IMG/VR virus record: IMGVR_UViG_3300022929_000106 | Location: 1 to 33,307 of that record | Reading direction: 5' to 3' (one strand) | From: a virus | DNA length: 33,307 nucleotides | In this document: positions 2 through 15,610 of the stretch, one piece after another | How the letters are laid out: each line of letters starts with the position of its first letter | Numbering within the stretch: the first letter of the stretch is position 1 | Notes under the pieces: model-generated | Databases searched by the model: none | What the model was told of the DNA's origin: nothing | The model's input: the letters and a program-made list of their open reading frames with translations, nothing else | Position numbers and translations under genes: made by a program

Positions 2-1204
2 GGTACGCAAGATATTATCAAGTGTGGTTCTTTTACGACTGATAGTGGTGGTAATGCTTCTGTTGACATTGGATTTGAACCACAATGGATAATTTATAAA
101 AGATCAGATGGGACATCTAATTGGGGTATGAATGATAATATGAGGGGGTGGGCTGATACCTATTGGAACCCCTTATATGCCGATGTAAGCAACGCAGAAA
201 GTGGATTTGCGGCTACTAGAAGTTGGCCTACGGCAACTGGATTTGAGTTTGAAGGACAGTTATCAGCTTCAGCTAACTACATCTACATAGCCATTCGCCG
301 TGGCCCTATGGCTGTGCCTGAGAGTGCGACTGATGTGTTTGATGTTGCCACAAGGGGTGCATCTAGCGGTGAACCTAATTGGAAAAGTGGGTTTGTAACA
401 GACTTTGCTATAATAAGAAATGTTGATACAGCAGATAATTGGCAATCTTCTGCAAGGTTAATACAGGGCAAGTCACTAACACCTAATGACACTTCCGCTG
501 AAAGCTCAAATAGTAACTATGCTTTTGATTATATGAACGGGTTTTTCTCTTCAACATCTACGGATAGTACGTTTTACTCTTGGATGTGGAAACGTGCCCC
601 CAACTACTTTGATGTCGTTGCTTACACGGGGAACGGAACAGCAGGGCGTACTGTAAGCCATAACCTTGGTGTTGCACCTGAGATGATCTGGGTGAAGTCT
701 AGGGATGCCGCTTATGATTGGCGTGTTTATCATTCTTCTACAGGGGCAACAAAATCACTTGAGTTAAACAACACTGTTGCAGCAGCAGCAAATTCATATA
801 TCTGGAATGACACAGCACCAACTGACAGCGTGTTTAGCCTTGGAACCCACACAAATGTTAATAAGTCTGGAGATGATTACATAGCCTACCTATTCGCAAG
901 CCTAGATGGTGTGTCTAAGGTGGGGAGTTTTAGTCATACAGTAGGCTCTAATACCGATGTAGATTGTGGGTTTAGCAGTGGTGCTAGGTTTGTTCTTATA
1001 AAGAGAACAGATAACGTAGGTCACTGGATAACTTTAGATACGGAGCGTGGTATTGTTGCTGGCAACGATGCTTGGTTGAACCTAAACACAACAGGTGCGG
1101 AGAATACAAGTTACGATTTTATAGACCCTTTAAGTTCTGGGTTTACAGTAGATGGCTCAGGCTTAATCGCAACTGGAACCTACATCTTCTACGCAATCGC
1201 ATAA
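2..1204 (+). CDS. Tail fibre / receptor-binding protein, C-terminal part (continues from 32468-33307)
   Basis: The frame is open from base 2 to the stop at 1204, and the first 135 bases repeat the right end of the window, so this is the C-terminal part of a protein of about 635 residues that starts at 32468. It is rich in Gly, Ser, Thr and Asn, as beta-rich fibres are. Around 586-700 it carries a block (FDVVAYTGNGTAGRTVSHNL) that is nearly repeated in the N-terminal half at about 32849-32910. The later segments 'VLIKRTDNVGHWITLDTERG' and 'IWVKSRDAAYDWRVYHSS' resemble modules of marine phage fibres annotated, as I remember, DUF7483. It probably acts at the tail tip in host recognition. The next gene starts 27 bases after the stop and looks like a tail-fibre chaperone. 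Confident on fibre role, not on receptor. Confidence 0.75.
   Translation, partial: GTQDIIKCGSFTTDSGGNASVDIGFEPQWIIYKRSDGTSNWGMNDNMRGWADTYWNPLYADVSNAESGFAATRSWPTATGFEFEGQLSASANYIYIAIRRGPMAVPESATDVFDVATRGASSGEPNWKSGFVTDFAIIRNVDTADNWQSSARLIQGKSLTPNDTSAESSNSNYAFDYMNGFFSSTSTDSTFYSWMWKRAPNYFDVVAYTGNGTAGRTVSHNLGVAPEMIWVKSRDAAYDWRVYHSSTGATKSLELNNTVAAAANSYIWNDTAPTDSVFSLGTHTNVNKSGDDYIAYLFASLDGVSKVGSFSHTVGSNTDVDCGFSSGARFVLIKRTDNVGHWITLDTERGIVAGNDAWLNLNTTGAENTSYDFIDPLSSGFTVDGSGLIATGTYIFYAIA
11..136. repeat. Left copy of 126-bp terminal overlap
   Basis: Bases 11-136 are identical to 33182-33307. The ten bases before it differ from those before the right copy (they encode G-T-Q instead of G-D-A). The overlap lies inside the fibre gene and keeps frame. 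It is most simply the closure of a circular map, in an assembly from a population that varies at this spot. Confidence 0.9.
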
Positions 1205-4514: not shown

Positions 4515-5066
4515 TTAAAAGGGAATGTCATCATCTTTCAAGCTTTGTGATGCTGCCTTACCTTGTGGCTCTGAGATATTGAATGACATGTATGGCTTGC
4601 CATCCTTCATTCTGCGCCATCCCGCAAGTCTACGGTTGGGATGTGGGTCAGTCCACGGCTGCTGTTTGTCATTCATGTTATACATATTGCCAGTATAATC
4701 AGGCGCACCTTCTTTGCCACCTTCTTGTTTAAACATTACACCAACTTTTTCGTAGACCTCCATGATCTCACGACCACCTTTGGTTTCACGACGAACAATT
4801 GCATAGCGTCCTTCTCTGCCCTCAACATTCATCTTGCCTTGCAAGATCATCTTCATGTCTTCAAAGGGTGGGAATGCCACGCCATCATTTGTGTTGTCAT
4901 ATTCTGCCATGCTTCTGGCTCCTGTATTAAAGTGTTTTTGTGCAGCTTCTAATCTACTGTGGTGACTTCTGGACTTATCCTTTCTGTGACCACATGACTT
5001 CCCTGCCTTAGCTGCACACTTGGGGCAGGGAATCTGTTGTACCATTTCTCTGGTAACTGTTACCAA
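4515..5066 (-). CDS. Zinc-finger / DUF736-like protein with SSB-type acidic tail; candidate ssDNA-binding protein
   Basis: 183 residues. Residues 14-40 hold a short zinc-binding motif (CPKC, then C25 and His residues, 'GHRKDKSRSHHSRLEAA'). The middle resembles DUF736-like small beta proteins ('GAPDYTG', then 'AGWRRMKDGKPYMSFNI'). The end is DDDIPF, the exact style of the C-terminal tip by which bacterial SSB binds its partner proteins. It lies directly after the exonuclease and annealase genes. I infer an SSB-like role; an OB fold is not visible by eye. Start: TTG 5066 has GGAGG six bases before it and overlaps the ERF stop; ATG 5045 (MVQQIPCPKC) is the alternative. Confidence 0.7.
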   Translation of the reverse strand: MVTVTREMVQQIPCPKCAAKAGKSCGHRKDKSRSHHSRLEAAQKHFNTGARSMAEYDNTNDGVAFPPFEDMKMILQGKMNVEGREGRYAIVRRETKGGREIMEVYEKVGVMFKQEGGKEGAPDYTGNMYNMNDKQQPWTDPHPNRRLAGWRRMKDGKPYMSFNISEPQGKAASQSLKDDDIPF

Positions 5067-7296: not shown

Positions 7297-7448
7297 CTGT
7301 CCTCCTCATAGCAATGAAGACAAACAAACCAATGCTTCTCCATTGTGCGACGATGCTTGCGCTTTAGTATGGCAACAAACCATTCGGTAATGGTGCCACA
7401 CGCAATGCAGTTAATCGTTTGTCTTTTTCTTTTTGACTTCGATGTCAT
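7128..7448 (-). CDS. Zinc-ribbon protein overlapping the resolvase gene
   Basis: 106 residues. The first half looks real: basic start, 'CIACG' (14-18) and 'CLHCYEED' (43-50) give a CxxC...CxxC zinc ribbon with aromatic residues between. After about residue 51 the frame runs inside the resolvase gene, and its sequence (many Ser, Thr and Lys) looks like a shadow of that gene. Either a tolerated C-terminal extension is made, or the frame is disrupted in relatives. Its start overlaps the end of the XRE gene by 38 bases. Moderate certainty for the ribbon, low for the tail. Confidence 0.5.
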   Translation of the reverse strand: MTSKSKRKRQTINCIACGTITEWFVAILKRKHRRTMEKHWFVCLHCYEEDRWQTVTSQKELTTKSGLSTGSTKSKRRSKRNASPSQEAWEASIQGTSTSSSTDESW

Positions 7449-8020: not shown

Positions 8021-8189
8021 GGTGATTTTCCTCCCATGATTGCATGCAACGAGCTAAGAACTTGTCTGCATTGAAGTTAGGATTGATTGACTTGATTGCG
8101 TCTGCAATAGCCATGTGTGCATGTGGTGATAGGTCTACACCCAGCTTATCGCTGAGTGCATCCACTTGTTCGGTTGATAGATTAAGCAT
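7989..8189 (-). CDS. Hypothetical early protein
   Basis: 66 residues from ATG 8189, the ATG inside the TAATG overlap with the DUF932 gene; ATG 8204 is possible but would begin inside that gene. The sequence 'STEQVDALSDKLGVDLSPHA' suggests a short helical domain, followed by 'FNADKFLARCMQSWEEN' and an acidic end 'PLNDEIPY'. No family recognised. GGGAG upstream supports the start. Confidence 0.6.
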   Translation of the reverse strand: MLNLSTEQVDALSDKLGVDLSPHAHMAIADAIKSINPNFNADKFLARCMQSWEENHLAPLNDEIPY

Positions 8190-9016
8190 TAAGCAAACTC
8201 CCATTCTTTGTTGCGCATTGCAGATGCAATGGCTGCTTCACGATTGTAACGCGCAGTGTGCGGTGAACGCAGTTCGCCAGTGTGCGTTGCCCAATAGGTT
8301 AGCGTATTGTACGCAGCCCATTTGTTATGGCCTAGAGCAGCCGCTTCGTTGCTCCAGATAGACAGCAAGTTCTCAAGCTGCTTCTCGTTAGTCTTAGAGA
8401 CTGTCACTTGGCGTGTGAACGCTTTGGCTACAGTCTTCTTAAAGAAGTTCTCTATCTGTGCGTCTGTCACTGGTGTGCGCATCCATGACTGCCACACTTC
8501 TTTGCGTGACATGAAGTGTTGCAAACCATTAATCATTTTATTGGCACTGCCTTCTACATTGATAGACGCAGTATGTTTGTAACGCGTCTTGGCTACTGCA
8601 TCAGGCGTGGTGCATCCGTTCTTGCACCATAATCTAAAGGCATCTGCGATTTGAGAGAAAGGCCAAGAGGCATCGTAACTATTAAAGAAGTTGACTCTGA
8701 ACTTAACGTGGTCACCGACCTCAGGCTCTACCACTAAATCGTTGAATAGAATCTGACCGCGTAATTTGCGTCCATTTTCTAAGACTTCAACGTCAACGGT
8801 GTAGTCATTCGATAAGTCTGCTTGTGACACACCATCTAAGATTGAATTGACAACATCATCATGGCTTACTGCTTTGTAGCGAGAGCCGTGTACGCCCAAC
8901 ACTTTGTTGGTGTCAGTGCGCATGATGCATTGTTGCCCATCAATCTCATTGCCATGCATGTCAAAGACAGGTTGCGTTTCAATTGGAAAGTTCCATTCGT
9001 TTGTCATATCAAGCAT
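8189..9016 (-). CDS. DUF932 (phage/plasmid-like) protein
   Basis: 275 residues from ATG 9016, preceded by GGAG and CTATCACA. The family core is clear: 'GVHGSRYKAVSHDDVVNSI' near the N-terminus, 'NGRKLRGQILF', 'VKFRVNFFNSYDASWPF', 'AFRLWCKNGC' and the C-terminal 'AYNTLTYWATHTGE'. DUF932 proteins occur widely on plasmids and phages near recombination and replication genes; their biochemical role is not established. Here it lies in the early block, overlapping its neighbours by 8 and 1 bases. In a genome without its own polymerase it is one of the few candidates for a replication-linked early function. Confidence 0.85.
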   Translation of the reverse strand: MLDMTNEWNFPIETQPVFDMHGNEIDGQQCIMRTDTNKVLGVHGSRYKAVSHDDVVNSILDGVSQADLSNDYTVDVEVLENGRKLRGQILFNDLVVEPEVGDHVKFRVNFFNSYDASWPFSQIADAFRLWCKNGCTTPDAVAKTRYKHTASINVEGSANKMINGLQHFMSRKEVWQSWMRTPVTDAQIENFFKKTVAKAFTRQVTVSKTNEKQLENLLSIWSNEAAALGHNKWAAYNTLTYWATHTGELRSPHTARYNREAAIASAMRNKEWEFA

Positions 9017-9203
9017 TGTGATAGCTCCGTTCTGTTTTAAGTGGTGCAATTGCACGTTCATCTTTTTCAGTGAAGAAATTGATTTTAAATTCATTACCGC
9101 TTTCATCTACGATAATCAGATTGCGGCAAATGAACTTAATGCCACTAGTGTAGTGGCTGATTTGTTCACGCACCTCTTTCACTTTGTGAATGTTTATATC
9201 CAT
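9009..9203 (-). CDS. Hypothetical small early protein
   Basis: 64 residues from ATG 9203, chosen because GGAGAACAACA precedes it. Alternating strands (GIKFICRNLIIVDESGNEFK, INFFTE) suggest a small beta fold with a helix 'KVKEVREQISHY' in front. No family recognised. It is the first gene after a 107-base gap holding an operator palindrome and CGTCA repeats, so it probably heads a transcript running through the DUF932 gene. Confidence 0.65.
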   Translation of the reverse strand: MDINIHKVKEVREQISHYTSGIKFICRNLIIVDESGNEFKINFFTEKDERAIAPLKTERSYHNA

Positions 9204-9624: not shown

Positions 9625-10242
9625 TTATGCTGTCTTCGCGCTATCAACGCCATTGGTGTTGGCAGCATTACCCACTGCCATATCAAGGCCTCGCTCGGCA
9701 AGCCGTGCCGCAATCTCTGCCTCTTTGTCAGAGCTTGCTTCTGGCTTAACCTCGACTGCTGTTGTCCATGGTTCCCATGGTTTGTGGGTGCTTCCACATG
9801 CAACCTCCATAAAGTCGGCAAACATGTGGTACATCTCCTCGAACATCGCAAGCTTCTCTTCGAGTTGCTGCACCCACATCTCCGCTCGATCAAGGGCCTC
9901 AAGGGCGATCTCGGTACCATCGTACTGCGCACTGGCCTGTTTCAAGTTGACCATCGCTTTGTCCAGCTTGTGCTTGACGCCCTTGACGTACCCTTTTGTG
10001 TTGGTACGTGTGTCATACATTGCTGCCCACAAGTGGTTCGCAATGTGTTGCATGAAGAAGAGCTGTTCCCACTGGTGGCTGTTGACTTCCTCATATGCAC
10101 CAGTGTCTTGGTTCAGCTTCATGCGCGGATCGTACATCTCCGCACACAAGCGAGCTATCGCTGCGCTTAGTGCTACGTTGTCCTCACCTGTGTAAGCAGA
10201 CTGAAGTGTTGAGTTGATTAGTTTCGCTTGTTTCTTATCCAT
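9625..10242 (-). CDS. Hypothetical helical early protein
   Basis: 205 residues from ATG 10242, preceded by TGGAGAACACA. Nearly all helical, with long amphipathic stretches: 'KGYVKGVKHKLDKAMVNLKQ', 'EIALEALDRAEMWVQQLEEK' and 'LAMFEEMYHMFADFMEVACG', ending in an acidic disordered tail. It may form a coiled coil or helical bundle. I recognise no family. It is the largest gene near the divergence point and ends in a strong terminator, so it is likely an early protein made in quantity. Confidence 0.7.
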   Translation of the reverse strand: MDKKQAKLINSTLQSAYTGEDNVALSAAIARLCAEMYDPRMKLNQDTGAYEEVNSHQWEQLFFMQHIANHLWAAMYDTRTNTKGYVKGVKHKLDKAMVNLKQASAQYDGTEIALEALDRAEMWVQQLEEKLAMFEEMYHMFADFMEVACGSTHKPWEPWTTAVEVKPEASSDKEAEIAARLAERGLDMAVGNAANTNGVDSAKTA

Positions 10243-10386: not shown

Positions 10387-10509
10387 TCAAAATTCTATTG
10401 TATCTTCATCATCCTCTTGCTTCTGCATCCAGCAGTCGCAAAAGAATGTGAAGGCTGGTATTGTAAGCTGCGTTGCTTCTATCTCTACCCAATCAATATC
10501 TTCACTCAT
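10387..10509 (-). CDS. 40-residue acidic protein, first gene of the minus block
   Basis: It begins MSEDIDWVEIEATQLTIPAF and ends in a run of acidic residues (EDDEDTIEF); there are two Cys (CDC). GAGGAGATGAACA precedes ATG 10509, close to the leader of the other minus genes, which is the main reason to believe it. Small acidic first-expressed proteins in phages often inhibit host enzymes or mimic DNA; that is only a suggestion here. The frame after the TGA stop stays open for 43 codons, probably by chance. Confidence 0.6.
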   Translation of the reverse strand: MSEDIDWVEIEATQLTIPAFTFFCDCWMQKQEDDEDTIEF

Positions 10510-10730
10510 TGTTCATCTCCTCTGATTATTTTGAACGGTTCCCGAACATCCTTTCGAGGGTCGAAGTCAAACCCTGACACACTTGGTGATGTTCCATCAC
10601 GAAGTGTTTCAGCCGTAGGTGAGGAAACAATGAGACTCACTGCGCGAATAAACTAAAGAGCGTCACGCTGTGCGTGACACAATAACGCTTGCGCATTGAC
10701 CGAGTTGTTTCTGAAGGTATTGACACAGAT

Positions 10731-10783
10731 GATATGGGTAAACCGCTTGCGGTTTAGTGGCGTGTCCCGCCACGGCCCATATC
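10731..10783 (+). repeat. Perfect three-way junction of inverted repeats
   Basis: Outer arms GATATGGG (10731-10738) and CCCATATC (10776-10783) pair over 8 bp. Inside, TAAACCG-CTTG-CGGTTTA (10739-10756) and GTGGCG-TGTCC-CGCCAC (10757-10773) follow with no gap, then GG. Every base except the loops and GG is paired. G(CUUG)C is a known very stable RNA tetraloop and exists only on the plus strand. Confidence 0.85.
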
Positions 10784-10825
10784 TATCCCTCGATACGGAT
10801 AACCTCACGCGATAGCTGACCGCAG

Positions 10826-10851
10826 TAAATCCGCACCCGCGTGTGGATTTA
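10826..10851 (+). repeat. 11-bp stem-loop with one G.U pair
   Basis: TAAATCCGCAC pairs with GTGTGGATTTA around a CCGC loop. The eighth pair is G.U on plus and would be A.C on minus, so the fold is complete only in a plus-strand RNA. The next hairpin (10852-10877) begins at the very next base. Confidence 0.8.
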
Positions 10852-10883
10852 GGACGACAAAAGCGGGAGCGTCGTCCGTCTGC

Positions 10884-10918
10884 CAGAGTCGCATGCCCTC
10901 GATGGGCATGTGCCTCTG
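10884..10918 (+). repeat. 15-position stem-loop with a G.U pair and one mismatch
   Basis: The arms CAGAGTCGCATGCCC and GGGCATGTGCCTCTG enclose TCGAT. Thirteen positions are Watson-Crick, one is G.U and one is U.C on plus; on minus the G.U becomes A.C. Confidence 0.8.
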
Positions 10919-10988
10919 CTTGGTGGTGGACTCCAGTGTGCCACTGGAACTAGGCACTTCAGTGCCACTGTGACTTGGCGAATAAGTT

Positions 10989-11029
10989 GAGGGGAACGCA
11001 AACGCGCAGCTGCACGTGCGTATCCCCTC
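10989..11029 (+). repeat. 12-bp stem-loop with single bulged A
   Basis: GAGGGGA-ACGCA pairs with TGCGT-A-TCCCCTC, the A at 11022 being bulged. The 16-base loop holds the palindrome GCAGCTGC, which could pair between two molecules. Confidence 0.8.
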
Positions 11030-11079
11030 GGACTGATTCGACAATGTGTCAAGGGGTGCAACACCAGCAATCACTCTTG

Positions 11080-11114
11080 TTGACAAGAAGTGACGCTACG
11101 TCACATCTTGACAA
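11080..11114. promoter_or_regulatory. Long interrupted palindrome centred on GTGACG-CTA-CGTCAC
   Basis: From the centre outward: GTGACG/CGTCAC, an A/A position, CAAGA/TCTTG, an A/A position, TTG/CAA. Fourteen of 16 positions are symmetric. Its core TGACG-N3-CGTCA also occurs at 9268-9280. TTGACA -35-like boxes occur at 11080 and 11108. Placed at the divergence of the two blocks, it looks like an operator for the early/late choice, or the last stem of the structured region. Confidence 0.55.
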
Positions 11115-11137
11115 CTTGTCAGTCAATCGGCTTATCT
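11108..11137 (+). promoter_or_regulatory. Possible promoter for the small terminase gene
   Basis: A perfect -35 TTGACA (11108-11113) is followed after 18 bases by TTATCT (11132-11137), a poor -10. It lies 40 bases before ATG 11177. Confidence 0.3.
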
Positions 11138-11160
11138 GGGGGGGAAGAGGGAAGGGGGGG
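11138..11160 (+). other. G-rich tract in terminase leader (possible G-quadruplex)
   Basis: G7-AAGA-GGG-AA-G7 provides at least four runs of three or more G, enough for an intramolecular quadruplex in DNA or RNA. It is 16 bases before the small terminase start and just upstream of its GAGAGG ribosome site. Confidence 0.55.
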
Positions 11161-11176
11161 CGATAGAGAGGATACA

Positions 11177-11554
11177 ATGACTGACCTTGTGAATAAGAAA
11201 TTGACTGACAAACAGACTCGCTTGGTGGATACACTCGTAGCATTAGGTTGTAGTGTCACTCAAGCTGCTAGAGAAGCGGGTTATGCAGAGGGCGAGTCTG
11301 GAAGAGTGAGTGCTTCCAAGGCCTTACGGCAACCACATGTGCAACAGTATATGATGCAACGGGTGTCAGAGCAGTTAGGTATGAATGCTACAGTTGCCGC
11401 TGCAAAGGTCTTGAAGCTCGCTTCAGGTGCCAAGAGTGAGTACGTTCAGCTAGAAGCATCCAAGGATATACTTGATCGTGCTGGATTCAAACCGATAGAT
11501 CGCTCGCAGGTACAGGTAGCAGGGGATATTAGAGTATCCATTGACCTGTCATAG
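11177..11554 (+). CDS. terS: Terminase small subunit
   Basis: 125 residues from ATG 11177, with GAGAGGATACA before it. 'LTDKQTRLVDTLVALGCSVT' then 'QAAREAGYA' (9-37) is the N-terminal helix-turn-helix of small terminases, followed by 'ASKALRQPHVQQYMMQR' and a long helix. It recognises the packaging site and presents DNA to the large subunit encoded at 13423. It directly follows the hairpin-rich gap; a packaging site near this gene would be usual. A terminator-like structure follows. Confidence 0.88.
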   Translation: MTDLVNKKLTDKQTRLVDTLVALGCSVTQAAREAGYAEGESGRVSASKALRQPHVQQYMMQRVSEQLGMNATVAAAKVLKLASGAKSEYVQLEASKDILDRAGFKPIDRSQVQVAGDIRVSIDLS

Positions 11555-14992: not shown

Positions 14993-15610
14993 ATGTGCGG
15001 AAAAGAAACTAAAGCTGCAAGTGAAAGCAAGAGTAAGAGCAAAGCTCCTACAATTGTTAAGAATATCTCAACAGATGTTAAGATTGCAACAAGTACATTT
15101 GGATTAGGTGGTCAAGCACAAAAAGATAAAATTGTTTCGCTTGGTTACAGTCCAGAAGCAGCCGAGGACTACCAAGCACGATCAAAGGCAAGTATGGCAA
15201 GAGCTTTAGCTGAAGAAAAAAGAATTTCTAAGAAGAGAAGTAAACAGGCAGTTGCAACCACAACAACCGACACTGATGACACTGAAACTACAGAAACAAC
15301 AGCAACAACTACTACTAATACAACAACAGAACGTGAAACAGATATAGGCGGGGCTGGCACAACAAGTGTAACTGCTGAGTCAATCTATACTCGTGATCCA
15401 GAAGAAGCGATGAGCGACCAAGAGAAGTTGGCGCAAGCAGAGCTTCGTCGGCAGCGTCAGCAACGTGCTATTGGTAAAGCTGAGAGATTAAGAACACGCC
15501 TAGAAAGCGCACAGAAGTTTGGGCCACAAGGTCGCCGTGGTGGTCGTGGTCGCCGTTCATTAATGACAGGTTCTCGCGGTGGGATCGGATACTATAGTAG
15601 GTTTAAATAA
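14993..15610 (+). CDS. Hypothetical Thr-rich protein before the portal gene
   Basis: 205 residues. A low-complexity Thr/Glu/Asp linker covers about residues 84-118, between a Lys/Ser-rich N-terminal part and a helical, Arg/Gln-rich C-terminal part. The end 'GRRGGRGRRSLMTGSRGGIG' plus YYSRFK is like a short motif I remember in marine podovirus proteins next to the portal. The end overlaps the portal ATG (TAATG). Probably a minor virion or head-assembly protein; not identified. Confidence 0.65.
   Translation: MCGKETKAASESKSKSKAPTIVKNISTDVKIATSTFGLGGQAQKDKIVSLGYSPEAAEDYQARSKASMARALAEEKRISKKRSKQAVATTTTDTDDTETTETTATTTTNTTTERETDIGGAGTTSVTAESIYTRDPEEAMSDQEKLAQAELRRQRQQRAIGKAERLRTRLESAQKFGPQGRRGGRGRRSLMTGSRGGIGYYSRFK

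Follow-up and report, generated by a model that had tools for sequence, protein, structure and literature searches.

What is the long, hairpin-rich gap that separates the early from the late genes of this phage: the gene of a large structured RNA, as a preliminary description had proposed, or a control element that acts as DNA? The window, that is the whole stretch of DNA analysed, is a linear record of 33,307 bp from a tailed phage with many marine relatives. On its left lies a block of leftward small genes, including those for a RecE-like exonuclease, an Erf-like annealing protein, an HTH protein and a DUF932 protein (8189-9106, minus strand); the first leftward ORF as read from the sequence, of 40 aa, occupies 10387-10509 on the minus strand. 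Another early protein (4515-5066, minus strand) has a zinc-finger match and a C-terminal DDDIPF that resembles the tip of single-stranded-DNA-binding proteins. The rightward late genes begin at 11177 with terS, the terminase small subunit (11177-11554, plus strand), and continue with terL, a head-tail adaptor and the major head protein. Between the two blocks, 10526-11176 is free of genes: the ORFs that cross it are short, no frame is preserved among relatives, and in none of them does an open coding frame run through the region.

The gap had been described as a succession of stem-loops between the early and late blocks, and this holds. Within 10400-11300 we found 24 inverted-repeat pairs, many of them nested or head to tail, including 10574-10612, 10662-10678, 10739-10756 (within 10731-10783), 10826-10851, 10852-10877, 10884-10918, 10932-10948, 10989-11029 and 11079-11115. 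Measured against dinucleotide shuffles, the fold has a z of about -8 as RNA and -10 to -11 as DNA. In detail, the RNA fold of 10551-11176 reaches -258.6 kcal/mol on the plus strand (z -8.14) and -245.2 kcal/mol on the minus strand (z -8.11), with 0 shuffles as good on either, and the DNA fold of 10551-11076 gives z -10.8 on the plus and z -9.9 on the minus strand, so that a stable single-strand fold is available to both. The span first delimited, 10551-11124, is structured and gene-free as stated; it does not form one unit. Rather, the structured element covers about 10551-11045, and a promoter zone of its own occupies 11079-11176.

Related contigs that extend far enough carry a gene-free gap 5' of terS, mostly of about 280-700 nt, and the fold z of such gaps ranges from +1.5 to -11.6. 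Sequences of the window type recur at 94-99% identity in several contigs; over about 800 nt, contigs L087 and L089 are 82% and 76% identical. A search with the invariant loop ACGNCAAAAGCGGGAGCGNCGT uncovered further lineages, which a profile then joined with contigs found by a core motif (see below). The resulting family of homologues of 10551-11045 comprises about 24 distinct sequences from IMG/VR phages of at least three lineages, up to 746 nt long as extracted, situated with leftward early genes on one side and rightward late genes on the other. Members of groups C-F have other flanking genes and the same plan of leftward small genes, element and rightward late genes; in L302, terS lies on the opposite side, beyond the early genes, and on the right the element is followed by a large gene and terL. 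Among annotated phages, the sole similarity is to terS of Pelagibacter phage Hodr (L081). Its terS-upstream gap is structured (z about -5) but cannot be aligned with that of the window. Aligned with its reverse complement, the Hodr gap matches at 68% over 523 nt, forming one long imperfect hairpin instead of many small ones. As a cultured pelagiphage, Hodr offers a cultured model for the equivalent gap.

The stems of this family are under selection. Alignment A2 holds 15 sequences with identities down to about 45%, and in its consensus of 39 pairs 97.8% of the cells are paired and 17 pairs have changed on both sides. Because the consensus was derived from A2 itself the paired percentage is inflated, which does not explain the double changes. 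The covariation score is 0.431, compared with 0.160 +/- 0.015 in shuffled and 0.03-0.13 in slid controls. That the stems outlast divergence to 45% identity through compensatory change points to selection on the structure, and the search for compensatory changes suggested at the outset thus gave a positive answer.

Followed along the plus strand, the window copy opens with a hairpin with 18-nt arms (10574-10612), whose loop-closing pairs covary with respect to L087 and L089 (GTGATG/CATCAC to GTGATC/GATCAC). A long-range helix pairs 10624-10631 with 10704-10711, positions that we transferred by hand from A2 to the window; it encloses the hairpin 10662-10678 and is present in all groups with double changes. 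Then comes a three-way junction (10731-10783), in which the stem 10731-10738/10776-10783 surrounds two hairpins; it is seen in the inverted repeats and in both RNA and DNA folds. The hairpin TAAATCC/GGATTTA (10826-10851) is another single stem that is exactly compensated in L087 and L089, as TAAACCC/GGGTTTA. Next to it, the hairpin GGACGAC/GTCGTCC (10852-10877) presents the invariant loop CAAAAGCGGGAGCG on a stem that covaries in all groups, and the hairpin 10884-10918 occurs in the window, L087 and L089 types only. At the 3' end, where covariation is strongest (10975-11044), the helix 10975-10986/11033-11044 (GGCGAAT...ATTCG) wraps around the helix 10993-11006/11013-11025. These last two helices, the long-range helix and the hairpin 10852-10877 are the best supported of the family.

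Most full-length homologues, including L087 and L089, end in a common module. We recognized it in eight phage gaps as an 87-position motif of fixed orientation near the 3' end, and built a covariance model (R1) trained on these eight phage gaps only. Strong matches occur in only about 11 of 94 terS-linked gaps. Searched against the F plasmid (L297), R1 yielded two matches on the minus strand, one at 10082-10178 (E 4.4e-21) and one at 15470-15566 (E 4.8e-20). Both fall within a pair of 559-bp repeats, 89% identical, that precede ssb and the 64032 gene, the latter with a DUF932 gene behind it; in the F segment, the core is some hundreds of nt away from a long AT-rich hairpin. Frpo elements are single-stranded-DNA promoters of conjugative leading regions (PMC9849209, PMC11541004), in which promoters of this type are widespread (PMC11541004). 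On F, Frpo2 precedes ssbF and Frpo1 precedes ygeAB; the two are separated by about 5 kb and share 92% identity, and deleting Frpo1/Frpo2 is reported to abolish early expression after conjugation (PMC9849209). The repeat segments fit Frpo1 and Frpo2 in position, spacing and mutual similarity, and it is on these features, not on published coordinates, that we base the assignment.

The core is not peculiar to F. A genomic copy matches 4,372 PLSDB plasmids, 3,454 of them typed as conjugative, mostly in unannotated DNA and often several times per plasmid; the leading region of one E. coli conjugative plasmid holds four copies in one orientation, together with ssb, DUF932 and a TrfB-like gene, and here as in F a DUF932 gene is found downstream of Frpo-type copies. 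The motif is also found in alpha-, beta- and gammaproteobacterial contigs, where several copies lie near, and several upstream of, ArdC- or DUF932-like genes (recognized from sequence). Matches of bacterial genomes to a 16-mer from the core could at first be put down to chance, since about 120 exact ones are to be expected in 257 Gb, but many of the copies proved to contain the whole motif. Of 33 viral cores, 28 have predominantly minus-strand genes on the 5' side; on the 3' side, plus-strand genes prevail in 32 of 35. In this arrangement the early genes are transcribed from the core strand, and the same holds in F. Two records stand out in arrangement: a 63-kb virus record (L332) has two Frpo cores, 700 bp from each other and oppositely oriented (7309-7404, minus; 8072-8170, plus), and L122 is the only terS-linked case in which the core (891-989, minus strand) is found on the opposite strand, shortly after terS. 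With a profile of the full family, similarity to plasmids is restricted to the 87-nt core, none being detected beyond it.

The window copy itself has no core: R1 finds none in it up to E 10, and the whole gap has no match among plasmids. In L087 and L089 the core sits at the place equivalent to 11045 (between 11045 and 11046 of the window), and L164, 96.6% identical to the window sequence, has about 146 nt there that resemble the pre-core module of group E/F members. The window copy has thus most likely lost its 3' end. Lacking the core, it is not classed here as an Frpo; by sequence, it is a member of a homologous phage family whose members mostly bear one. Its placement is of the Frpo type, upstream of the early genes and with the folding plus strand of 10551-11045 as their template strand.

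If not an Frpo relative, the element could be a large non-coding RNA that is made from the plus strand, acts as RNA and belongs to a class not yet described. Its size and its ornate, nested and covarying structure would suit such an RNA, as would the aligned-family fold, which is better on the plus strand (z -11.0 versus -7.2 on the minus), where the family also aligns better. Strong covariation alone, we caution, is no proof of RNA. We looked at wobble pairs, on the premise that the stems of an element acting as RNA should show more G.U than A.C states. The G.U pairs and CUUG loops of the window had been taken to favor a plus-strand RNA, a preference that disappears family-wide: the ratio of G.U to A.C is 11:13 by pairs (stems predicted on both strands) and 47:58 by cells, with other cell counts at 60-63 versus 65, whereas RNase P RNA in the same pipeline gives 28:10, 19:10, 24:7 and 26:5 by pairs, or about 3:1. 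This near-equality supports, without proving, a function other than as RNA. The counts are uneven among sub-groups (pairwise 8:15 in A/B), and the 110:38 in groups C-F is RNA-like. We had also considered the pairwise total of 280:165 as a sign of RNA and downgraded it, given the RNase P calibration and its shrinkage to 36:22 (p 0.087) once dependence was removed. Because cGNAg and C(UNCG)G are reverse complements, a hairpin with a DNA mini-loop of the first kind appears in the opposite strand with an RNA tetraloop of the second; loop types thus fix neither strand nor chemistry, and we dropped them as strand evidence. Further against an RNA, an Rfam search at gathering and permissive thresholds (E up to 10) returned nothing beyond chance hits, which leaves the suggested likeness to GOLLD and ROOL RNAs without a match; no plus-strand terminator was seen at the 3' end of the element; and the family has its core in common with Frpo, which is known to work in the form of single-stranded DNA. 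Of the initial proposal, the structure is thus real and selected, the identity as RNA is not established, and a Frpo-related DNA element is more likely. We regard an RNA as unlikely, with an appreciable residual chance.

The reading that we favor, at about even chances, is that the gap belongs to a phage family of hairpin-rich control elements that are related to Frpo and drive RNA synthesis into the leftward early block when the plus strand is single-stranded. Covarying structure, homologues in several lineages, a core in most of them, and an orientation and gene context (DUF932) as in plasmids support it. In this mechanism the plus strand, from which the leftward early genes are transcribed, would become single-stranded and fold into the conserved stems; host RNA polymerase would start at the folded element and proceed leftwards into the early block; and its product would serve as early mRNA, as a primer for complementary-strand synthesis, or as both. 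Folding of the single strand in the cell, recruitment of polymerase, transcription or priming, and activity of the core-less window copy are the steps that we infer. Tailed phages normally inject double-stranded DNA, which speaks against this reading; replication or RecE/Erf-type recombination are candidate occasions on which the plus strand could be exposed. Also against it are the absence of the core from the window copy, the restriction of plasmid similarity to that core, the small share of terS-linked gaps with strong core matches and the unevenness of the wobble counts; by eye, moreover, we identified no -35/-10 pair inside a stem of the window copy. In its favor, a consensus scan found no minus-strand sigma-70-like promoter inside the gap, and the family aligns and folds better on the plus strand. 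All told, we consider a DNA switch or priming site the likelier identity of the element, ahead of a new giant RNA.

A narrower alternative would restrict the element to replication, as an origin or a single-strand initiation site (ssi) that primes or loads replication proteins and has no role in early expression. The replication origin named in the preliminary description overlaps with our preferred reading in this respect. The single copy at a fixed genome position would agree with an ssi, as would the early genes scanned, among which we found none for a replicase; Frpo, too, gives both transcripts and primer RNA, as Masai and Arai (1997; cited in PMC11541004) state in their title. Yet nearly all cases have the same orientation to the early genes, and we saw neither an initiator gene nor an iteron array. 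A purely replicative role is, in our judgment, likewise unlikely, slightly more so than an RNA.

The conserved promoter zone forms the last ~70 nt before terS. A probable late promoter on the plus strand (11108-11160) combines TTGACA (11108-11113) with G7-AAGAGGGAA-G7 (11138-11160). The pair of G tracts is present in 91 of 94 related gaps, and TTGAC lies 20-40 nt ahead of it in 89 of the 94, in 86 of these at 30-32 nt. Late-gene transcription probably starts in this zone; this being 3' of the structured element, the element would not be the leader of the terS mRNA from that promoter. Just before it, the dyad GTGACG-CTA-CGTCAC (11090-11104), which recurs in other clades, is a possible operator. 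The near-mirror polypurine G7-N9-G7 at the start of the late operon, at its nearly fixed distance from the TTGAC box, has an activator-dependent start, a G-quadruplex and a packaging cut as candidate roles. In four contigs (L057, L069, L142 and L015) an extra long-range stem, CATTCCTTCTTAG...CTTAGAAAAAAGGAATG, lies between the G tract and terS, possibly a structured terS leader. Ten contig ends among the related loci lie between 25 and 75 nt upstream of terS, an excess over neighboring bins that packaging ends or assembly breaks could explain. A packaging site, also raised early on, or a recombination site (pac/cos) draws on these frequent ends and on the adjoining terS, but is very improbable for the element, which in groups C-F is not directly before terS and in L302 is separated from it by the early genes, and outside of which, at the G-tract/promoter zone, the contig ends cluster.

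Should the Frpo-related reading be correct, the early template strand would be exposed as single-stranded DNA during infection, and a single-strand expression system with DUF932-type genes would be common to phages and plasmids. The broader proposal, that abundant marine double-stranded-DNA phages start their early program at a promoter or priming element made of single-stranded DNA and akin to the one in conjugative plasmids, we put forward tentatively, somewhat short of even chances. It would mean that single-strand promoters are not confined to conjugation and that such phages pass through a single-stranded stage for early reading or for priming of replication. In the literature searched we found no report of Frpo-like elements in phages. 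The roughly 24 diverse full-length sequences with mapped stems make the Frpo-type structure, and the unexplained 87-nt core, directly testable.

Among known systems, GOLLD and ROOL RNAs (PMC12286853) resemble the element in being phage-borne, several hundred nt long and ornately structured with covariation. They differ in what surrounds and marks them: the element has no Rfam match and, over the family as a whole, no RNA-like wobble bias, it has a module in common with a DNA promoter element, and the usual location near tRNA genes does not apply, as a search of the window found no tRNA or tmRNA and hence no tRNA island. CUP elements of IncN leading regions (Delver and Belogurov 1997, as cited in PMC6289460) are repeated non-coding control elements associated with ssb, DUF932 and ArdK/TrfB-like genes. 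The core is present in such a leading region, a context which suggests that CUP and core may overlap. Frpo1 and Frpo2 of F are single-stranded-DNA promoters and also ssi. Unlike these, the phage element is a single copy beside a late promoter in a double-stranded-DNA tailed phage, its similarity is confined to the core, which the window copy lacks, and its activity is predicted from sequence. Shared with them are the 87-nt core, borne by the relatives of the window copy, transcription of the downstream genes from the core strand, a hairpin-filled interval of several hundred nt that separates core from genes, and a DUF932 gene downstream.
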